A stretch of DNA of 64,000 nt from Poritiphilus flavus. Lineage in GTDB: Bacteria; Bacteroidota; Bacteroidia; Flavobacteriales; Flavobacteriaceae. The stretch lies in NCBI RefSeq assembly GCF_009901585.1, contig NZ_WXYO01000007.1, forward strand, positions 372,001-436,000. The letters are read 5' to 3'. The position numbers and the translations under genes are program-made. The notes under the pieces are model-generated. The model was not told the DNA's origin. It did no database searches and saw nothing but the letters and a program-made list of their open reading frames with translations. Position 1 is the first letter of the stretch; each line of letters begins with the position of its first letter. Shown here one piece after another: positions 4,473-39,143 of the stretch.

Positions 4473-4687
4473 AATGGATTGAATTAGTCAGTTGAAAATA
4501 ATAGACAAAATAGCCAAAAAACTAGAGATATGGAAAAGAATTGGCAAGGGGCAAACTGTATTATATGAAGTGCCCAAGTACATCCGAATAATTCCATTTG
4601 CTACTTCTGTCAAAGGACATTCTGACATCTCTTAAAATCATCCTCTGGATAATCACTTCCGGAATTTAGAAATATAGTCTAAAAGAC

Positions 4688-5857: not shown

Positions 5858-6490
5858 ATGAAGCTTTTGATCATCGGCGGAACGGGCAAAACCGGCAGAA
5901 AATTAATTGAGCAAGGCCTTACGCAAGGGCACTACATCACCGCTGTCGTTCGAAAACCCGGAAAACTAAAAATCAAATCCCCGAATTTAAGCCTTGTAAA
6001 AGGGGACGTACTTATAGCAGAAAGTATAGAGGATGCCTTTAAAGATCAGGATGCCGTACTTTCTGCCTTAGGCCACAAACGATTCTTTATCAAAACAACC
6101 ATTCTCTCCAGAGGCACAAGAAATATCATAGCCGCAATGCGCAAAAATGGAGTTAAGCGATTTATTTGTATTACTTCTCTGGGTATAAATGACAGTAGAT
6201 TTAAGCTCGGGTTATACTATACGCTATTTACCATTCCTGTAATTCTGTTTTTCTACTTTTTAGACAAATCCAAACAGGAGAAATTAATCATGGAAAGTGA
6301 TTTGGATTGGACCATAGTGCGCCCCGGTCAATTGACTAACGGAAAACTAAGAACAAATTATTATCATGGTGTGAAAGCGGGGCATTATGTTTTAACCAAA
6401 ATGATCTCCCGTGCCAGTGTGGCCCATTTTATGCTGGAAAATTTGGGATCCGATCAGTATCTGCACCAGGCAGTTGGGGTAACGAATTGA
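5858..6490 (+). CDS. NAD(P)-binding NmrA/SDR-like reductase
   Basis: A 210-residue atypical short-chain dehydrogenase fold. The N-terminal dinucleotide motif GGTGKTGRKL is at residues 7-16, followed by VVRKPGKL (NADP-preferring basic residues), KGDV and ALGHKRF. There is no classical YxxxK pair, as is usual for NAD(P)H-binding atypical SDRs. A hydrophobic stretch at about 130-145 (TLFTIPVILFFYFLD) may contact the membrane. WTIVRPGQLT is the conserved C-terminal motif. It has its own transcript, with no partner visible. Confidence 0.8.
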   Translation: MKLLIIGGTGKTGRKLIEQGLTQGHYITAVVRKPGKLKIKSPNLSLVKGDVLIAESIEDAFKDQDAVLSALGHKRFFIKTTILSRGTRNIIAAMRKNGVKRFICITSLGINDSRFKLGLYYTLFTIPVILFFYFLDKSKQEKLIMESDLDWTIVRPGQLTNGKLRTNYYHGVKAGHYVLTKMISRASVAHFMLENLGSDQYLHQAVGVTN

Positions 6491-6690
6491 CCCAGTGCAA
6501 CTGTATTTATTAGAACTTCTAAATTTGAGCCTAGCAAAACATTACACCACCACAAATAAGCGCGAATACTCTAAAAATGATACCTTTGGTCTTTATTTAT
6601 ACTACTTAATTGTGGCCTAAATGTTAAAACCCCAAAGCGAAACAATTTAGCGCTGAAAAACAAGTTAGGAGTAAACAAATCGCTCATACC

Positions 6691-7566
6691 ATGCTAAACC
6701 TACGACCGCCTCTTAAGTATCTTTTTGTTTCAACTATATTGGGTTCTCTTTTGTTTTCTTGTAGTAACGAAAATGGGGATTCTGAGACAAGCATAATAAC
6801 AAAAACTGCGAATATTAGTTTTTCTGAGACTTCTTCGACCGGTTTTGAGGGAGGGGTTACCACTTACAGCTCCAATACGGACCCTCAAAGTAAAAATTCA
6901 GACTCCGAGTTCTTTATTTCTCAGTACCCACTTGCAGAGTATCGAAAAATTTATGAGGTAGAATACGATTCTGTAGTCACTGTTGAACTGGATACCATTA
7001 CTATGGATACGCTGTCCGTAAATGTAGAAGTGGTGGAGTTGTCCAGGGAATTCACAGGGGAAGTCATAAAGGGAAACCTATGGGCGCCCTATGAGCAATA
7101 CTATGTTTCGGAACTGTATGTGGGAGTTCCACAAGCTGTTTTGGATACGGTTCAGAGAATTGAAATACTGGCAGATGTAACGGATAGCTTAGCCGATGAG
7201 CCTGCAAGAGGCGGGATCTCCATTTCCCTTCGGAATCCGGATATTGACGTAAACTATTTTCTATATGACAGTTATTTTGAGATGGATTCCTCACTCTACG
7301 TCAAATCCGATGAAGTACCGGTCTACAATGATAATGGAGAGGTAGAAAGTTATACTTCCGGTTTGATTCTGCCTTTGTTCAGGCTGCATCACCAATCGGA
7401 CGATGTTACACAACCGCTTACCAGATCTTTTAGAATGGAAATAAGGCTCGGAGAGACCAGTTTCTTCGCGGATTTCTCTGTTTATTTCGTATCCGCGGAA
7501 GTCTGGGGCAATCGGAATTGCTGGTTGCACCAGGTACCTGAATGCCGGGATTATTTTGAGGAGTAA
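6691..7566 (+). CDS. lipoprotein of unknown function
   Basis: A 291-residue protein with a lipoprotein signal (hydrophobic segment then LLFSC, Cys24), followed by a low-complexity Ser/Asn/Asp linker and a beta-rich acidic domain. The end (CWLHQVPECRDYF) has two Cys that could form a disulphide. I recognise no family. TACCTTTG at 6581-6588 could be its -7 element, but it lies 100 nt upstream and has no partner box. Confidence 0.65.
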   Translation: MLNLRPPLKYLFVSTILGSLLFSCSNENGDSETSIITKTANISFSETSSTGFEGGVTTYSSNTDPQSKNSDSEFFISQYPLAEYRKIYEVEYDSVVTVELDTITMDTLSVNVEVVELSREFTGEVIKGNLWAPYEQYYVSELYVGVPQAVLDTVQRIEILADVTDSLADEPARGGISISLRNPDIDVNYFLYDSYFEMDSSLYVKSDEVPVYNDNGEVESYTSGLILPLFRLHHQSDDVTQPLTRSFRMEIRLGETSFFADFSVYFVSAEVWGNRNCWLHQVPECRDYFEE

Positions 7567-7611
7567 TTATCGTTTATCGCATTTTACTTATAAGTCCTGC
7601 TGATTTGGCGT

Positions 7612-9366
7612 TCAATGATTATATGGGACATAATTAGACCATTCCCAGGGCGTATACTGGTCTGCAAATGTGTAATTCAATAATTCTTTAAAGATACTTT
7701 CGCCATTTTCGGAATTGGTCATAATTAGGATCCCTTTGCCGGATTCCGGGAAAATAAGGGAATAGTGTTGAAATCCACTGCCATTACCTCCCTTAGAAAA
7801 TCCTTGCCCATAAGGGGTTTCCAGGGAAAGCCACCCCAAGCCACAGCTTAGATTGATGTTATCGTATTTATTGGTAGTCTTTGCTGCATCCGGTCCAAAG
7901 TGTTTTAAGGAATGAATTCTTATCTGTGGACTGAAAATTTCCTTATACGAAGATTCACTGAGAATCTCCTGATTGAGAACAGCCGTTAAAAACTTGATGT
8001 AATCCTCGGCTGTGGTTTCCAACGTACTTCCTGCCCTTGGTTCATTGTCTATGTCTTTGTTATAGTTCTTTCCGTTCTTCATGTGTCCGTAGGCAAAATC
8101 TTCTTCGAATCTGCTTTGCCATTGGTAGGCAGAATTCTTCATTTGCAAGGGTTCAAAAATAATTTCCTGGGCAAGTTCTTCCAGGCCCTTTCCTGTTATC
8201 TTTTCCAAAACCACCTGCAGGTAGACAAAACCTTCGCCACTGTAACCGTATTTGGTGCCCGGAGGAAAGAGGACTTTCAATTTTTTGTCCGGCTCAAAGA
8301 ACCTCCAATTTGGAAATCCGGTGGTATGTGCCAAACACATTCTGGCGGTTATCTTAGGATATAGACTGTCATTTTTCAGATCCGAATAATCATCATGCCA
8401 GCGGGTTAAGGGTTCATATTCATAGATTCTCTTGGGAAGATAAGACTCCAGAGGCGTGTCCAGATCAATAACTTTATCTTCTACTAATTTCATCACCAAC
8501 ACGCTAAAGACCGCTTTGCTCAGTGAAGCTCCATAGATATTTGTGGAATCTGTCAGGACCAATTTATTCGGAAAGTCTTTGTATCCTACGATATTTTTAT
8601 AGACGGCTTGCTTATTATCAAATATGGCAACCGCCATTCCGTGTACGTTTGCTTCGCTCGCCAGTTGTTGGATCTTAAGCGTTATGGAATCTTTGGAGAT
8701 CAAACTTCCATCCAGACGTTCTATTTGTGGCTTAGGCTCTGAAGTACAATTGCTAAAAGCCAAAATCAGTAAAAACAAAGCAACTGTGTTTATGGATTCA
8801 ATCGGTTTGAATTTTAAAAAAGGTATAGCTAATGGGTAGTAGCATTTTTCACTTCGAATCACATAAATGATGTTGAACATCACAATGACAATAATAATGG
8901 GTATGGTAGCGATAAATATGAAGAAGCCCCATTTTTCTACAGTAACCAGACTGATAAAAGACAGGAAAAAGAGTAATAATGCGGTAATCTGAAAATTAAT
9001 AACCTTAACCCCATGCTGATTATAAACGGGATTGCCCTCTCTTTTATGGATCCAGATGAAAAGCGGAAGAAGAACATTGCATAGGGGTATAAAAAGCCCG
9101 ATTAGCGGAGTCGCGTGCAGCAACAAAAGCCATTTTTTCTTGATGGTTTCTTCTTTTGGATTTTCTAAAGGGAGTAACTCGTTTACCTCAATGTCCAGAG
9201 CCACCGCCAGCAGTTTTAGGGTATTCAGGTGAGGATTAACTTCGGCATTTTCTATACGTTGAATGGTGCGAACCGTAACACTGGCTTTGTTGGATAATTC
9301 TTCCTGAGAAAGTCCTTTACTTTTTCTGTGAAACTTTAATCTTTCGGCAAGCGATGTATTGGGCAT
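7612..9366 (-). CDS. XRE HTH - membrane - beta-lactamase-type serine hydrolase fusion
   Basis: A 584-residue protein from the ATG at 9366. Order: a cytoplasmic XRE-type helix-turn-helix (about residues 4-64, GLSQEELSNKASVTVRTIQRIE), four membrane helices of DUF4870-like appearance (about 78-180), then a hydrophobic stretch ending in a lipobox-like LAFSNC (about residue 207), then a class C beta-lactamase/DD-peptidase-like domain. The serine motif is SLSK (SxxK), the second motif is YSG rather than YxN, and the KTG equivalent is SKGGNGSG. It could be a one-component sensor with an extracytoplasmic penicillin-binding-like domain. It could also be an HTH-membrane gene fused in frame to a lipoprotein hydrolase gene. 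Reading continuity is clear; mechanism is inferred. Confidence 0.8.
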   Translation of the reverse strand: MPNTSLAERLKFHRKSKGLSQEELSNKASVTVRTIQRIENAEVNPHLNTLKLLAVALDIEVNELLPLENPKEETIKKKWLLLLHATPLIGLFIPLCNVLLPLFIWIHKREGNPVYNQHGVKVINFQITALLLFFLSFISLVTVEKWGFFIFIATIPIIIVIVMFNIIYVIRSEKCYYPLAIPFLKFKPIESINTVALFLLILAFSNCTSEPKPQIERLDGSLISKDSITLKIQQLASEANVHGMAVAIFDNKQAVYKNIVGYKDFPNKLVLTDSTNIYGASLSKAVFSVLVMKLVEDKVIDLDTPLESYLPKRIYEYEPLTRWHDDYSDLKNDSLYPKITARMCLAHTTGFPNWRFFEPDKKLKVLFPPGTKYGYSGEGFVYLQVVLEKITGKGLEELAQEIIFEPLQMKNSAYQWQSRFEEDFAYGHMKNGKNYNKDIDNEPRAGSTLETTAEDYIKFLTAVLNQEILSESSYKEIFSPQIRIHSLKHFGPDAAKTTNKYDNINLSCGLGWLSLETPYGQGFSKGGNGSGFQHYSLIFPESGKGILIMTNSENGESIFKELLNYTFADQYTPWEWSNYVPYNH

Positions 9367-9471: not shown

Positions 9472-11454
9472 TTATGGGTTTATTGAAACAAATCCTGGTA
9501 GAACATGTTCCGCAATGATTTGCAACATACCGTTACCGTCGTTGTTATGACCAGTGGCTACAACGATTAGATCCAGCTCGTCTATTTGAACAATATACTG
9601 GCCTCCCCCACCCTGGGCAGATGCGCTGTAATAGCTTTTATTGCCATGTTTAAGGTCTGCATTCCAAAAGAAATAGCCGTATCCCTGCTTAGATACATCT
9701 TTGCCGCCGCCAAATACATCATCGTCTCCGGTAAGTAGTATTCTGCTGGTTGCTTTAGCGATATAGTCCTCCGGAATCAGCTGTTCGCCATTCCATTTGC
9801 CTTTATTCCTGACCAGTATACCTAATTTAGCCATATCCCTGGAGGTTACGCTGGATCTCCATCCTGATGCAGGCAAGCCATATTCGGTTTCCCACTTGTA
9901 ATTTGTAATACCTAATTTATCAAAGAGTTCATTTTTGATAAAATCTTCGGCAGTACCGGGTACAACAGCCTCAATAACTTGCATCACGAAGGGTGGATTG
10001 AAGTTCCCATATTTGAATTCCTGAGACTTTGGAGTAATTGGCGCGCTATGTTCAAGAACGGCCTGAACGATCTTTTGGCCGGTTAAACTATTGTCTTCCC
10101 TGAATTCTTTCCACTTGTCTTCAGGAATGCCTAACCCACCCTGCATGGTTAAGGCTTTATTAAGAGTGATTTTTTCTACACCTTCTGGAAATTTTGAGGA
10201 ATCCAGCTCTTTGAGAAAGCTCACTACGGGCTTGTTCAGATCATCCATACTCAAATACCCCAGCTGTATAGCACGGCCTAGCAACAAACTGGTCATGGCT
10301 TTGGTAGCAGAGGCCTGAGGGTGTGCCACATTGCTGCGGCCACGTCTGAAATAGGATTCAAAGAGCAGCTTGTCTTTGTGGATAATAAGAAAGCTATCGA
10401 AGATGCTATCCTGACTTTTAGCAATCTCCCGGGCCAGCTTAAGAATCGCTGCTTTATCGCCACCATCCTTGCCCAATTCCCCTACTGAAAGTCCGTCTTT
10501 TCGGTCCTCAGGAGTTGGATTAATATATGCCTGATTTAGTAGTGGGGTTTTAGAAGCAAATTCATCAGTATTAAAGGTAGAACCGTCCTTTATTGCGGTG
10601 GATAGCCAGGCTATGCTGCGTATGGCGGTCATAGGAAAGCCGGATTCATGATTTCCTTCAATCACTTCCTTATGTATAGCCAAGCCTACATCTCTTCTTT
10701 TCCTCAGTAAGCTATAAAAATCCTCGATAGACTTAGCTGCGTCCTCTTCTAACGTGCCATAAGAAAGGAACACATTGGCATTTAAGCTATTGTTTTTATC
10801 TGTACGGGAGGCATTAAATTTAGAATAAAGTTCAGATAGATAGGGAACTTCGTTTTTTATAGATGGACTACCAATAATGTAGTTGTCAAAAGTTTGAGGT
10901 TGCGTTAACAAGATATAAGCCCCAAATTCTCCACCCAGTGAGTAACCAAAATAGGTGCGGCTGTCCGGATCTGTGCGATAGTTATTGTCTACGTATTTAA
11001 TGACATCATTCTTTATAAACTCCAGATGTTTGCTGGCTTGCCCTAGTTGATATTTGGCTTGGATCTCAGGATTGTCATGTTCCTTCATGCTGTAGTCCCG
11101 AAACCGGCTAACATGCTTTCCCCGCTCTTTTAAAAGATCTTCGTTGATGTCTAATTGCCAGGAAATACCAACCAAGATCACATCTTTTAGCATATATTCG
11201 GTAGCCGCTGATAGTACTTCTATATGCCAAATGGCATCTGTGTAATAGATAACGGGATAGGCTACGTCTGTATTCTCTGAATACCCTTCCGGCAGCTTTA
11301 TATAAAGTTCATAGTTTTTGTTTGCTTTGGTATCTTTTATTGGGATAACCTGTGTATGCGCTAATTCGAAGGTGTTGTTTGCGTTATTTTCTTGAGTAAA
11401 AGCAAGCTGTGACGAGATGGCAAAAACCAGTAGTAGTAACTTCTTTATATTCAT
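9472..11454 (-). CDS. secreted esterase - beta-lactamase-type hydrolase fusion
   Basis: A 660-residue exported protein; the ATG at 11454 precedes a good signal peptide (MNIKKLLLLVFAISSQLAFTQ), whereas longer starts would bury it. Residues about 25-280 form an alpha/beta-hydrolase esterase of the Fes/IroE-like class, with the nucleophile elbow GYSLGGEFG. Residues about 330-650 form a serine beta-lactamase-like domain with SATK (SxxK), YGN (YxN) and a Gly-rich QGGGG near the KTG position. Two hydrolases on one chain suggest sequential cleavage of an ester- and amide-bearing substrate, but none is identified. It lies 105 nt upstream of another serine hydrolase gene on the same strand. Confidence 0.8.
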   Translation of the reverse strand: MNIKKLLLLVFAISSQLAFTQENNANNTFELAHTQVIPIKDTKANKNYELYIKLPEGYSENTDVAYPVIYYTDAIWHIEVLSAATEYMLKDVILVGISWQLDINEDLLKERGKHVSRFRDYSMKEHDNPEIQAKYQLGQASKHLEFIKNDVIKYVDNNYRTDPDSRTYFGYSLGGEFGAYILLTQPQTFDNYIIGSPSIKNEVPYLSELYSKFNASRTDKNNSLNANVFLSYGTLEEDAAKSIEDFYSLLRKRRDVGLAIHKEVIEGNHESGFPMTAIRSIAWLSTAIKDGSTFNTDEFASKTPLLNQAYINPTPEDRKDGLSVGELGKDGGDKAAILKLAREIAKSQDSIFDSFLIIHKDKLLFESYFRRGRSNVAHPQASATKAMTSLLLGRAIQLGYLSMDDLNKPVVSFLKELDSSKFPEGVEKITLNKALTMQGGLGIPEDKWKEFREDNSLTGQKIVQAVLEHSAPITPKSQEFKYGNFNPPFVMQVIEAVVPGTAEDFIKNELFDKLGITNYKWETEYGLPASGWRSSVTSRDMAKLGILVRNKGKWNGEQLIPEDYIAKATSRILLTGDDDVFGGGKDVSKQGYGYFFWNADLKHGNKSYYSASAQGGGGQYIVQIDELDLIVVATGHNNDGNGMLQIIAEHVLPGFVSINP

Positions 11455-35053: not shown

Positions 35054-35950
35054 TTGATATCCTGGGAGAAAATACCGCATAGCGATAAGATACTATTTCC
35101 TGAATCTGGAATTACTAAAGGTGAGCTTGCAACCTATTACGACGCTGTGGCAAACAATATGTTGCCCTATCTCAGTGACCGTCCGCTTACATTACACCGA
35201 TTTCCCAATGGTATCAGCAGGGAAGGATTCTTTCAAAAAAACGCTTCAAAATATTTTCCTGATTGGATAAAGACGGCCAAAATAAGAAAGAAAAATGGTT
35301 GGGTGAATCATGTCATTTGCGACCGTAAAGAGACTTTGTTGTATCTGGTGAGCCAAGGCACCATTACCTTCCATATCGCGCTTAGTACGCTTGATAAACT
35401 GGACTATCCGGATAAAATGATATTCGACCTTGATCCACCCGAAACTAATTTTGATATGGTCGTGGAAGGGGCCAAAATTGTCCGGAGTTTTCTGGAAAAC
35501 AAATTGGGCCTAAAAACTTTTGTTATGACCACTGGATCCAGAGGCTTGCATGTTGTCGTGCCCCTGGACAGAACCGAAAATTTTAATGTGATCCATGATC
35601 TTGCCAAAGGAATTGCCAAACATCTTGCCAGTGAAAATCCCGAAAAATTGACAACCGCGATTCGAAAAGATCAGCGAAAGGGAAGACTCTTTTTGGACTA
35701 TCTTAGGAATTCCTACGCCCAGACCAGTGTTTGTCCATTTTCTGTACGGGCAGTGGAAAATGCTCCGGTGGCTACTACCCTACGGTGGGGCGAACTGGAA
35801 GATAAGGGCCTAAATGCCCAAACCTATAATATTAGCAATATTTTCGGAAGATTAAGAGAAATGGGGAACCCTTGGGAAGATTTTGAAAAATTTACCGGTT
35901 GCATTACCGAACCCCAAAGGATTTTATGGGATCTAGGTCAAAACATATAA
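35054..35950 (+). CDS. stand-alone LigD-type polymerase/primase
   Basis: A 298-residue protein that is essentially one LigD PolDom: SDKILFPESGITKGELATYY, RPLTLHRFPNGI, the catalytic DLDPP at MIFDLDPPE, TGSRGLHVVVPL, FLDYLRNSYAQT and APVATTLRWGEL. No ligase or phosphoesterase domain, and no Ku gene, is visible nearby. The start is a TTG at 35054, with a stop 10 nt upstream, 9 nt after the BON gene. It may extend or fill DNA ends in stress. The IS1595-type element is inserted 29 nt after its stop. Confidence 0.88.
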   Translation: MISWEKIPHSDKILFPESGITKGELATYYDAVANNMLPYLSDRPLTLHRFPNGISREGFFQKNASKYFPDWIKTAKIRKKNGWVNHVICDRKETLLYLVSQGTITFHIALSTLDKLDYPDKMIFDLDPPETNFDMVVEGAKIVRSFLENKLGLKTFVMTTGSRGLHVVVPLDRTENFNVIHDLAKGIAKHLASENPEKLTTAIRKDQRKGRLFLDYLRNSYAQTSVCPFSVRAVENAPVATTLRWGELEDKGLNAQTYNISNIFGRLREMGNPWEDFEKFTGCITEPQRILWDLGQNI

Positions 35951-35971: not shown

Positions 35972-35979
35972 ATAAATAA
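35972..35979. repeat. left copy of 8-bp target duplication
   Basis: ATAAATAA, repeated exactly at 39136-39143 on the other side of the element. Confidence 0.85.
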
Positions 35980-36004
35980 GGTAACTATATACTTGTATAA
36001 CCCA
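35980..36004. repeat. left terminal inverted repeat of the IS1595-type element
   Basis: Begins GGTAACTATATAC and ends TAACCCA, matching the right end in inverted orientation at about 21 of 25 positions. Confidence 0.88.
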
Positions 36005-36039
36005 ATTTGATTATATCTGAACTATAAATCATTTTAAAA

Positions 36040-36995
36040 ATGGATAAATCTCAGCAAATAAAGGGTTTCAAAGGCATTTTAGAGTTAATCAAATATTTTG
36101 ACACAGAAGAAAAGTGCGCGGAATATTTAGCTTTCCAACGATGGGGTGATAACCCAATCTGCCCACATTGCAATCATGACAAAATCTATGAACTTAAAGG
36201 TAAGAACAAAAGATTTAAGTGTGCTTCGTGTAGGAAGCAATTGAGCGTTCGAGTAGGAACGATTTTCGAAGACAGTAAAATTAAACTGCAAAAATGGTTT
36301 ACTGCAATATGGCTAGTCACTTCTCATAAAAGGGCATATCCTCGCTTCAATTGCACAGGGATTTGAATGTAACACAAAAAACCGCGTGGTTTATGCTGCA
36401 ACGGATCAGATATGCGCTTTCATACGATTTTACAGATTCCTTGGATGGTGAAGTTGAAGTTGACGAAACTTATGTGGGTGGAAAGAATAAGAATCGACAC
36501 GGCAATAAGAAAATGCCAAACTCGCAAGGACGTAGTGCAATTGACAAAACCCCTGTAGTAGGTATGGTTCAACGTTCCGGCCTTCTAACTGCATCAACCG
36601 TGAAGGACGTTAAGGCAGAAACCTTGATCCAAGAGATTATTAAAAAAGTCCGTGAATCCGCCAAAATATATACCGATGAATGGTTGGGCTATAATGGACC
36701 GAAAAGAATATATGACCATTCAATTGTCAAACACAATAAAGGGGAGTATGTGAATGGTCGTATTCACACAAATACCATCGAGGGATTTTGGTCATTACTA
36801 AAAAGAGGCATATTTGGCATTTATCATTTTGCTTCTAAAAAACACCTGCAAAATATGTTGATGAGTTTGTTTTTAGGTATAACACTAGAGGCATCTCAGA
36901 ATCATTTAGGTTTGAATTCTACTTGTCTAATTGCGAGAGGAAACTGGATTACAAAACCCTTATTGGAAGGTAAATTTGCCCCAAAGTTGGCATAA
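36040..36995 (+). pseudogene. ISXO2-like transposase, frameshifted
   Basis: The N-terminal part (36040-36366) has a zinc ribbon (CPHC then CASC) and reads into KWFTAIWLVTSHK, after which the frame goes wrong. The rest (from about 36327 in the -1 frame) continues as GISSLQLHRDLNVTQKTAWFMLQRIR and carries the catalytic-type segments VDETYVGG, YTDEWLGY and NTIEGFWSLLKRGIFGIYH. One missing A in the AAAA run near 36327 would restore the frame. No classical slippery heptamer is in register, so I treat it as a mutation or sequencing error rather than programmed frameshifting. Confidence 0.85.
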
Positions 36996-37042
36996 AAGCA
37001 TTTTTTGCTTAATTTTGTAGGGTAAATTTACCCTAAAATTGG
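36969..37042 (+). promoter_or_regulatory. tandem near-repeats with palindromic core, possible operator
   Basis: GGGTAAATTTACCC at 37020-37033 is a perfect 14-bp palindrome directly before the TTG start of the HTH-ImmA/IrrE gene. A near-copy, GGTAAATTTGCCC, lies 52 nt upstream at the end of the transposase gene; the similarity extends through AAA.TTGG. Such a spaced pair is a natural operator for the HTH protein itself, which would then be autoregulated (inference). Confidence 0.5.
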
Positions 37043-38271
37043 AAAAATTAGATATAACCCGCCTTTTAGACAAGTCATTTTCTGAAGATTATGAACCCGT
37101 TGATCTTCTTAAACTCTTTGAGAAAAAATCAAAGGAATATGGATTTAGCACAACTCACGCAAGGGAGCTTTTAGGAATAGAGCGTAAATCATTAATGCCT
37201 ATACTTGAAGGAACCGCTAAACAGCCAAATCTCATAAATGTCCTTAAGATAGCGGATTACCTTGAGATTGACTTCAATGTTATGCTGGCCAGTTTGGTAG
37301 CAAAGCAAAGTCCAGAGAATGTGCAAAAGCTTACAGAGGCTCGAAAAGCATCTTTTGTAGCGAAAAACTTTGATGTTGACAGGCTGTATTCAGAGGGATT
37401 CTTGACGACAAAAACCGATACTAATACAATCATTGATAGAATATTGACCTTTTTTGGTTTTGAGACATTAGCGGATTATGAAAATTTGATCGACAGAGTT
37501 TCTTTGGCCGTTTTTAGCAAGTCAAAAAGGAGTTTTGTTGACAAGATGCGTCACTTTTCAGTCAATGCCGCCTTTCATATCTTCGAAACCATAGACAATC
37601 CCAATGAATATCATAGAGAAGCTTTGCTGGATCTGATGCCGAAGATAAAACCTTATTGCCAGGATGTTGAAAATGGTCTTTTTATTGTTTGTAAAGCATT
37701 GTATAATCATGGGGTTACAGTAATATTTCAAAATCATTTAACCACCTCACAGCTAAGGGGTGCAACTTTTTTTGTTAAGGACAAACCGTGCATCGTGCTT
37801 ACAGACCTCTTTAAGAGATATCCAACAATTTGGTGGGCGTTGTTGCACGAGCTTTACCATGTACTTTTTGATGAAGAGGATGTTAAGAAAAGTGGCTATC
37901 ACCTATCAGGAGAGGATCAGATAACCTTAATAGATGAAGAGGCTCCAAATGAATTTGCAAGCGATTATTTTGTTGACAAGGCAGAACTAAATTTTATACG
38001 GCCCAGAATTTTTGAAGAGTATTTGGTAAGAAATTTTGCTAAAAAAATCAAAGTACATCCGTCATTTATCTATGCAAAGTTTCAGCATCACATGAAAGAA
38101 GTCGAAGGAAAAGATTTCTATGGCGCATTCAGGACTGAATTTCCTGATTATAAGAAGGCTGTGGCGAGATTGAATCCCATATCTTGGAAGGAGGATTATT
38201 CGATTCCCGCTATAGCCAAAAGATTAAAAGAGATTTTTGATTTAAAAGAAGAATATGGAAAAAAAGAATAA
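37039..38271 (+). CDS. HTH - ImmA/IrrE-family metallopeptidase
   Basis: A 410-residue protein. The N-terminal part (about 35-90) is an XRE-like HTH (STTHARELLGIERKSLMPILEG). The C-terminal half has the ImmA/IrrE zinc motif HELYH at 270-274 and the downstream EEAPNEFASDYF segment supplying the third ligand. Related proteases cleave repressors to activate mobile elements or stress genes. It starts at a TTG (a TAG stop lies 18 nt upstream) and overlaps the next gene by 17 nt. It is cargo of the IS1595-type element. Confidence 0.85.
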   Translation: MEKLDITRLLDKSFSEDYEPVDLLKLFEKKSKEYGFSTTHARELLGIERKSLMPILEGTAKQPNLINVLKIADYLEIDFNVMLASLVAKQSPENVQKLTEARKASFVAKNFDVDRLYSEGFLTTKTDTNTIIDRILTFFGFETLADYENLIDRVSLAVFSKSKRSFVDKMRHFSVNAAFHIFETIDNPNEYHREALLDLMPKIKPYCQDVENGLFIVCKALYNHGVTVIFQNHLTTSQLRGATFFVKDKPCIVLTDLFKRYPTIWWALLHELYHVLFDEEDVKKSGYHLSGEDQITLIDEEAPNEFASDYFVDKAELNFIRPRIFEEYLVRNFAKKIKVHPSFIYAKFQHHMKEVEGKDFYGAFRTEFPDYKKAVARLNPISWKEDYSIPAIAKRLKEIFDLKEEYGKKE

Positions 38272-38809
38272 AACCAGAAAGGAAATTGACGAAAAGAAGC
38301 ATCTGGAAAAGCTCAAAATTCTACAAGATGCGAAGGCTTCTAAAGAAAAGCAACTTACCATTGATCTGGGTACTCATTCAATTGAGGAAATTGACAGACT
38401 AAAAGAAATTCTTAATAAGCATTTTGACGACCCCGAAGAAAAGTATCAGTTGTATTATAAAGGTATTAGAAAAGTTTTAATGCAATTTCTGCCAAAGGGA
38501 AAGTCGTTTGCTGAAGAACGTCAAATAATCTATGATGAGAAGAACATTTTTCTAAATAGAGGGAAGGCGAAAAGCAAAGACGGTGTAAGAGGAAGCGATG
38601 GAAGAATGACTTTTAATGACGACATGAATGTTATGGCCGATTTAGTCTCAGATTGGGTAATGACCTCCCAAGACCCCGTAGATTTATACCAGAGGTTATT
38701 TGACCTTAATGAAAAGTATGGTTATCCGCATCAGGAATATGATGATAGTAGCGCTTCATTTCACACGGCAATGAAGAAGATAGCGAAAGTTCCAAAGCCA
38801 AAAGACTAG
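38255..38809 (+). CDS. unknown cargo protein of the IS1595-type element
   Basis: A 184-residue, highly charged protein without membrane segments. It starts with a Lys/Glu-rich helix (MEKKNKTRKEIDEKKHLEKLK) and has an SIEEIDRLKEILNKHFDDP helical region and a GSDGRMTFNDDMNVMADLVSDW segment. I recognise no family. The ATG lies inside the end of the metallopeptidase gene, so translation is coupled. It could be the protease's substrate, partner or antidote. Confidence 0.7.
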   Translation: MEKKNKTRKEIDEKKHLEKLKILQDAKASKEKQLTIDLGTHSIEEIDRLKEILNKHFDDPEEKYQLYYKGIRKVLMQFLPKGKSFAEERQIIYDEKNIFLNRGKAKSKDGVRGSDGRMTFNDDMNVMADLVSDWVMTSQDPVDLYQRLFDLNEKYGYPHQEYDDSSASFHTAMKKIAKVPKPKD

Positions 38810-38812
38810 GTT

Positions 38813-39094
38813 ATGGAATTAGATTTTTGCTCACCACAGGCATGGCTGATATTGATCTTTGCATTAATACCTATAATTGGCCTGATTTTAGGTTTTAGGA
38901 ATAGAACACGTTATAACCCACCTAAAGGTCTTGGCAAACGATTTATACAGTTGATGTCGGTTGTACTTGTTTTGCCCATAATAGCTATCCTTTCCATTCT
39001 TGGGATTATTGAAGCTCAACTCTTAGGTGGATTGCTGGGCGCAATAATCGGATACACCCTTTCAGATTTAGCGAAAGACGAAAAAGACGAATGA
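38813..39094 (+). CDS. small membrane protein, cargo of the IS1595-type element
   Basis: A 93-residue protein with two or three membrane helices (about 10-27, 43-62, 67-83) and an acidic tail (KDEKDE). It starts 3 nt after the previous gene and stops 16 nt before the right inverted repeat. I recognise no family. Confidence 0.65.
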   Translation: MELDFCSPQAWLILIFALIPIIGLILGFRNRTRYNPPKGLGKRFIQLMSVVLVLPIIAILSILGIIEAQLLGGLLGAIIGYTLSDLAKDEKDE

Positions 39095-39110
39095 TATTTT
39101 TTTGACCTTA

Positions 39111-39135
39111 TGGGTTATTATTGTATATAGTTACC
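39111..39135. repeat. right terminal inverted repeat of the IS1595-type element
   Basis: Reads TGGGTTA... to ...GTATATAGTTACC on the plus strand, the reverse complement of the left end with a four-to-five-base central difference. Confidence 0.88.
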
Positions 39136-39143
39136 ATAAATAA
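39136..39143. repeat. right copy of 8-bp target duplication
   Basis: ATAAATAA, identical to 35972-35979; its perfect state suggests a recent insertion. Confidence 0.85.

Follow-up and report, generated by a model that had tools for sequence, protein, structure and literature searches.

The Poritiphilus flavus stretch analysed here, called the window (64,000 nt; NZ_WXYO01000007.1, 372,001-436,000), holds a complete IS1595-family insertion sequence (IS) of 3156 bp at positions 35980-39135. This window element is a transporter-type IS1595 element that carries a gene joining a helix-turn-helix (HTH) domain to an M78-type peptidase, an overlapping partner gene and a small membrane protein gene; ahead of these genes, two palindromic sites flank a promoter-like sequence. 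We consider it likely that this cargo is a self-repressed, probably DNA-damage- or phage-triggered, toxin-antitoxin or defence module that is carried as an IS1595 passenger. Counted from the first letter of the window, the parts are:

35972..35979, no strand: left 8-bp target duplication, ATAAATAA
35980..36004, + strand: left terminal inverted repeat, 25 bp, beginning GGTAACTATATAC; 21/25 identical to the right repeat
36040..36366, + strand: first frame of the transposase, N-terminal zinc ribbon (Zn_ribbon_IS1595, E 1.2e-13); frame lost near 36325-36340
36351..36995, + strand: second frame of the transposase, DDE domain (DDE_Tnp_IS1595, E 2.1e-38); frame lost near 36850-36862
36967..36982, + strand: predicted distal operator, AAGGTAAATTTGCCCC, overlapping the third-frame transposase stop
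36987..37017, + strand: predicted Bacteroidota-type promoter (TTG, 20 nt, TAATTTTG), between the operators
37019..37034, + strand: predicted proximal operator, AGGGTAAATTTACCCT, 52 bp from the distal one; 0/200 shuffles reach the score of the pair
37039..38271, + strand: predicted HTH-M78 metallopeptidase repressor, 410 aa, TTG start; HEXXH motif (HELYH) at residues 270-274
38255..38809, + strand: partner protein, 184 aa; 17-nt overlap with the HTH-M78 gene
38813..39094, + strand: small membrane protein, 93 aa, hydrophobic by eye
39111..39135, - strand: right terminal inverted repeat
39136..39143, no strand: right 8-bp target duplication, ATAAATAA

When the surroundings of the transposase were searched for ends starting with GG and bordered by identical 8-bp sequences, 35980-39135 was the sole result. 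This agrees with the initial annotation, which had described an IS1595-type insertion of 3156 bp with 25-bp ends about 21/25 alike and a perfect 8-bp duplication on both sides. GG-starting inverted repeats and an A/T-rich 8-bp duplication are features of the IS1595 family. At 300 arbitrary positions in 12 transposase-free loci, the same search made 25 calls at its loosest limit (14/24) and none at 16/24 or above, while the window element scores 20/24. Since the M78 module is known elsewhere without IS1595, one could suppose that a transposase landed beside a resident module and that the ends match by chance. The end score and perfect duplication, set against these controls, and five other elements (below), each with a module of this kind inside its own ends, make this extremely improbable. 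The G+C content is 36.6% in the element as against 40.8% in the window. As initially annotated, the insertion site follows a LigD-type polymerase gene (35054-35950; LigD_Prim-Pol, E 7.2e-86), and the left duplication ends 29 nt past it. On the other side lies a convergent, opposite-strand gene of 161 aa whose end is about 90 nt from the insertion point, so that neither gene is broken. The junction DNA revealed no empty site in 40 genomes (its own and 39 relatives, the genus being represented by its own genome only); the three matches outside its own genome fell on the transposase (G019, G210) and on a gene situated some 1.1 kb beyond the right end of the element (G008). Homologues of the 161-aa gene occur in 7 other genomes among 120, and no LigD or BON-gene homologue was seen near them in the stretches examined (seven short loci, three of those enlarged).

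The transposase has an ISXO2-like DDE domain (PF12762, E 2.1e-38; NF033547, 156.7 bits against a cut-off of 75) and an IS1595 zinc ribbon (PF12760, 51.2 bits against a cut-off of 25.4). The ISXO2-like assignment made at the outset thus stands, but the gene is broken by two frameshifts that had been missed. It is spread over three frames, the first running to about residue 97, the second to about 36857 and the third to a stop at 36971-36973; the third stretch and its stop were assigned by eye. With these frameshifts the window element lacks an intact transposase, a matter of autonomy and not of family membership. Both frame losses sit in A-rich runs, the duplication is perfect and the cargo frames are intact, all of which would fit a recent, still mobile insertion whose frameshifts are sequencing or assembly errors. 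We regard this as quite unlikely: the element is single-copy in its 4.99-Mb genome, and among the 12 other close same-strand pairs of open reading frames in the window, none of the five checked with Pfam resembles a split gene. Because of these five pairs, decay of the transposase is likelier than poor sequence, and the element should be fixed in place unless helped in trans. The initial view of a recent event, drawn from the perfect duplication, was not borne out, as the transposase is frameshifted twice and no empty site was found among the relatives searched.

The first cargo gene had been annotated as an HTH-ImmA/IrrE metallopeptidase, and our results agree. The 410-aa product is a predicted fusion of an Xre helix-turn-helix with an M78 (ImmA/IrrE/CapP-like) peptidase half. 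Its HEXXH ligands H270, E271 and H274 are invariant across 16 aligned rows, and its HTH was matched by sequence among PDB chains (E 5.9e-5). By fold, residues 18-105 or so resemble HigA, ImmR and DdrO, all with Z <8. Residues 197-371 resemble CapP (7t5t; Z 7.5, root-mean-square deviation 5.7 over 157 residues), a Z below 8 that can be common, and IrrE (3dte) matches the C-terminal half at Z 5.8, also below 8. The PADLOC model PD-Lambda-2_B matches the protein with E 3.7e-16, and the model RmrA matches it weakly (E 9.9e-5). RmrA is presumably a component of the Rosmer system, which consists of RmrA plus RmrB; the weak RmrA match is the only likeness to it, and the other two window cargo genes have no PADLOC match. 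The HTH-M78 profile found no relative in viral contigs. Matches to the protein were obtained in 28 plasmid records, all below 60% identity, and nine of them cover at least 80% of the protein. These plasmid relatives include NZ_CP094675.1 and NZ_CP021236.1, and six of the 28 records are from Hymenobacter.

The HTH-M78 gene and its partner form a genuine unit across genomes. A partner gene lies directly behind the HTH-M78 gene at 25/25 loci (the window, L009, L010, L011, L025, L027, L029, L031-L040, L050, L068-L072, L118 and L119). Twenty of these have a partner of the window type; the remaining five (L050, L071, L072, L118, L119) have another type: a P63C domain was identified in the L071 protein (E 7.3e-7), with which the other four proteins align. 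Thirteen of the loci, counting the window, were known or reached via the partner. The remaining 12 (L025, L027, L029, L031, L050, L068-L072, L118, L119) came from the M78 profile alone, so the presence of a partner there was not built into the search. Genome counts include the own genome and come from overlapping sample sets. The partner search gave 4/199 family genomes and the partner-profile search 12/395 phylum genomes. The M78 profile at E 1e-10 gave 27/397 family genomes, 10 of them with E <1e-80; the other 17 matches are weaker (E 7e-22 to 7e-11). A wider M78 profile at E 1e-30 gave 12/395 phylum genomes, and seven named loci came from a single genome-contig scan. At L029 in Aquimarina (5920-7613), an HTH-M78 pair of the L009 type lacks a transposase and carries what looks by eye like a shortened version of the element tail (below), perhaps the remnant of a lost element.

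The two smaller cargo proteins were also described correctly at the outset, as an unknown 184-residue protein and a small membrane protein. The partner at 38255-38809 has no match in Pfam (E 0.1), PADLOC, NCBIfam, PHROGs or phage records, and against the PDB its best E was 0.5 by sequence, with none at E 0.001 by fold. Homology to the P63C-type partners was looked for and not found (hhalign probability 0.2%). The 93-aa hydrophobic protein at 38813-39094 has no relative in the other HTH-M78 loci; a small hydrophobic third gene is also present in L071.

At six of the 25 loci, the pair is enclosed by IS1595 ends with perfect 8-bp duplications:

Window element: 3156 bp, duplication ATAAATAA
L009 element: 2954 bp, duplication TTTTCCAA
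L010 element: 4029 bp, duplication CGTCTATG
L031 element, Dokdonia pacifica: 5241 bp, duplication TGATATAA
L025 element, with the transposase pointing the other way: 3855 bp, duplication CTTTTTAG
L071 element, with the other type of partner: 3810 bp, duplication AAACTTTA

The end scores of the six run from 16 to 24 of 24, a range that 0/300 control placements entered. An equal duplication was a condition of the end search and is hence not independent evidence for elements delimited in that way. The arms of L009 and L031 are only 17/25 alike; for these two, a motif search located the ends, and the duplication then proved equal. The other 19 loci have no IS1595 transposase in the stretches examined, with L033, L035, L038, L039 and L050 cut short by contig ends. 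The initial annotation had asked whether the ends and three cargo genes move as one unit: transposase, HTH-M78 gene and partner recur in the five other delimited elements, but the 93-aa gene has no relative there. In a transposase tree of 17 rows (split or partial copies in L099, L102 (first) and L105 omitted), the six carriers need four changes, at least two of them forced. In an M78 tree of 20/25 loci (L033, L039, L040, L118 and L119 omitted), IS carriage also needs four changes, at least three of them forced, and one origin was recovered in 0% of bootstraps of either tree. Because the six carriers form one clade in neither tree, the association of the pair with IS1595 elements has been gained or lost more than once. 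Besides the pair, the Dokdonia pacifica element has a gene resembling the Panacea antitoxin and encodes a hydrophobic protein of 128 aa (L031, 4014-4869). The flanks of the L025 element (4490-4511 and 8365-8390) are inverted repeats of each other, as if the element sat in the loop of a terminator-like hairpin, and a hairpin-like repeat also lies inside each of its ends.

The spacing of the palindromic sites is shared across loci. In 19/19 loci with the window partner type and upstream DNA (L033, without upstream DNA, is omitted), the best palindromic pair is 52-54 bp apart; spacings of 45 to 62 bp were searched, a range set after the repeats were seen. At most 4/200 dinucleotide shuffles match the pair score in 16 of these 19 loci, the exceptions being L029 (30 of 200), L037 (7) and L070 (6). 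Start codons were assigned by homology for L025 (5983) and L035 (an inner ATG at 1679, minus strand). Operator sequence varies by clade (GGTAAATTTACC, GTCTCA....TGAGAC, GAGGGTAATTACCCTC, ATTGAAATTTTTCAAA and others) and the spacing is kept. The box TAnnTTTG, which we take to be a Bacteroidota-type promoter box, directly precedes the proximal site in 11/19 loci, window included. The distal operator begins at the transposase stop in L009, L010 and L031 and overlaps it in the window element, so the passenger brings its whole control region. About 52 bp corresponds to five helical turns, and two dimers could thus meet on one face of the DNA across the promoter.

In the scheme that we favour, the HTH domain would bind both operators, which are one promoter and about five helical turns apart, and silence its own operon. 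Repression would be relieved by a signal acting on the M78 domain; by analogy with CapP and PprI, this would most likely be single-stranded DNA arising from damage or from phage replication. The partner would then serve as effector or as antidote to it, and the response would be of the toxin-antitoxin or abortive defence kind. Addiction or defence may be what the module offers in return for being carried, and this would account for cargo that is intact although the transposase has decayed. Single-stranded DNA is reported to activate the CapP and PprI proteases, which cleave their HTH repressors (PMC13373217, PMC10904395). The Xre-peptidase fusion PD-lambda-2B is reported to be toxic on its own and to be kept in check by its partner gene (Vassallo 2022, PMC9519451), and COG2856-Xre fusions were proposed as three-component toxin-antitoxin circuits (Makarova 2009, PMC2701414). 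By these analogies the window pair should be a self-repressed stress or phage response that ends in toxicity or defence.

Outside IS1595, the pair often sits among defence genes. Neighbours were probed with PADLOC at 13 of the 19 non-IS loci, and seven of the 13, a count that is not a rate, have a strong PADLOC neighbour:

L027: type II methyltransferase
L034: type IIG enzyme and GajA
L037: type III enzyme
L068: PDC-S06
L069: type I enzyme
L011: PDC-M65B
L119: PDC-S54

Weak PADLOC neighbours were found at L070 (AbiH, E 5.7e-6) and L029 (partial, E 9.5e-8).

Several observations weigh against a self-repressed defence module. The neighbours at L027, L034, L037, L068 and L069 were picked by eye, without a random-locus control; eight non-IS loci probed further gave two strong neighbours, two weak ones and four without a match, and the genes probed at L032, L035, L036 and L040 had no PADLOC match. 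Near relatives occur among the 19 operator loci, which cannot be counted as 19 independent cases, and none of the five loci whose partner is of the other type has a significant operator pair. No relative of known function was detected for the partner, and its structural model is poor (predicted local distance difference test 66.8). For the HTH-M78 protein, the Pfam M78 score of 15.2 bits is under the cut-off of 22, and the M78 fold match is under Z 8, a level that can be common. As for the trees, label shuffles needed as few changes in 100/500 cases (transposase tree) and 65/500 (M78 tree), so IS carriage shows scatter and no clustering. Placement is blurred by long branches (L071 in both trees, L025 and L101 in the transposase or M78 tree and L035 in the other one), and the changes may be losses as well as gains. 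In L025, finally, the operators lie between divergent transposase and M78 genes, an arrangement that fits control of transposition as well.

This last point leads to another explanation, that the pair is the element's own control circuit, like ImmR/ImmA of ICEBs1, keeping transposition silent and releasing it upon DNA damage. The two-operator region of L025 is common to both genes, the distal operator touches the transposase stop in the window element, L009, L010 and L031, and the ICEBs1 analogy is discussed in PMC2701414. In these same four elements, however, the transposase lies upstream of the operators, so its promoter would not be under their control. Moreover, 19/25 loci have the pair without an IS1595 transposase in the stretches examined (the five cut short by contig ends included), several of them beside defence genes, and other delimited IS1595 elements lack the pair. 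We therefore consider a transposition circuit unlikely and keep the self-repressed toxin-antitoxin or defence module as the preferred explanation.

Known systems share parts of this arrangement. IS1595 "transporter IS" with passenger genes have been described (Siguier, Gagnevin, Chandler 2009, as cited in PMC3129680 and PMC12561309). The window element resembles them in its DDE_Tnp_IS1595 domain, zinc ribbon, GG-starting repeats, 8-bp A/T-rich duplications and passengers (compare the member in PMC12561309), and differs in its HTH-M78 and partner passenger with paired operators and in the broken transposase of this copy. No description of an IS1595 element with an HTH-M78 passenger was found in a literature search whose scope excluded most subscription literature, Siguier 2009 among it. 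Like the COG2856-Xre systems (PMC2701414), the window pair has an Xre HTH fused to a HEXXH peptidase in an operon with another gene on a mobile element. It differs from them in the downstream position of its partner, for which Pfam gave no match to PIN or RelE (E 0.1), toxins that are frequent but not universal in such systems. The second component of PD-lambda-2 is likewise an Xre-peptidase fusion (PMC9519451), and PD-Lambda-2_B matches the window protein, whereas components A and C have no match and no PADLOC model hits the other two cargo genes. CapH/CapP and DdrO/PprI (IrrE) combine an HTH repressor with an M78-type protease, as is predicted for the window protein (PMC13373217, PMC10904395); in the window the two halves share one 410-aa frame, as opposed to the separate genes of CapH/CapP. 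The novelty lies, in our reading, in the passenger, with its predicted function, of an otherwise known kind of IS1595 element.

IS1595 elements in the family carry other cargo as well. Transposase matches at E 1e-20 numbered 17, in 15 of 199 family genomes, and 10 of the 17 were delimited with equal duplications (window, L009, L010, L094 second, L098, L100, L101, L102 second, L103 and L104). All ten are 2.9-4.7 kb long, and none is a bare element of about 1 kb, though sizes from 700 bp were allowed. For the other seven, ends were found only under relaxed conditions in four and not at all in three, and bare copies are possible among them. The extra DNA of L102 has short frames only; cargo domains elsewhere include Panacea, BRO-N, RhuM, P63C, NYN and RadC. 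In L094, L095, L096, L097, L098, L101 and L102, seven elements chosen for their visible overlap, exactly 8 nt separate the start of the following frame from the end of the transposase stop downstream of it, an overlap that suggests translational coupling. At L104 (8999-9520), a transposase-like protein (E 4.9e-20) with, by eye, a zinc ribbon and an HTH and no DDE domain overlaps a P63C gene (9507-10409); it is possibly a DNA-binding module derived from a transposase.

A C-terminal tail similar to ELSDFNKKLKKGLxWNPK is common to unlike protein families: RhuM (L095, 7074-8189; L096, 7071-8189), P63C (L097, 8635-9615), BRO-N (L094, 10937-11899) and the M78 partner (L009, L010 and L031, the last at 7121-7669). 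Short remnants in L098 and L101 end in it too. A tail search of 149 genomes gave nine matches with E <1e-5 (five seeds and four new ones: G019 twice, G088 and G085), all within 3 kb of an IS1595 transposase; five further matches (E 0.016 to 0.04) look like chance. Between L031 and L094 the tail DNA is 81% identical over 52 bp and the last 175 columns are 74% identical, with differing parts before them, which points to passenger exchange between kept ends. The tail is absent from the window partner (no G000 match in the tail search), which carries a different extension; a similar one occurs in L032 and L070, both without IS1595. The idea of a tag consequently does not extend to the window element.

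These patterns allow a broader proposal, which is tentative: we hold it to be possible, short of probable, that Bacteroidota IS1595 elements are not simple insertion sequences and constitute a modular cargo system, in which modules for stress, phage regulation and defence are exchanged on a constant chassis of ends and transposase (HTH-M78 pair, Panacea, BRO-N, RhuM, P63C, NYN). In one clade, an element-specific C-terminal tail would mark the protein behind the transposase and would tether unrelated passengers either to the transposase or to a host partner common to them. With the HTH-M78 passenger would come its own two-operator switch, its 52-54 bp spacing kept while its sequence changes. 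That passengers without kinship share such a tail suggests that cargo and transposase are linked, physically or through regulation.

A small family of DDE transposons has thus been associated more than once with the same predicted self-regulated protease-repressor pair. This links IS1595 elements to the traffic of what may be defence or toxin-antitoxin modules in Bacteroidota, and the paired-operator rule, together with the conserved partner, gives a direct, testable handle on the partner protein family.

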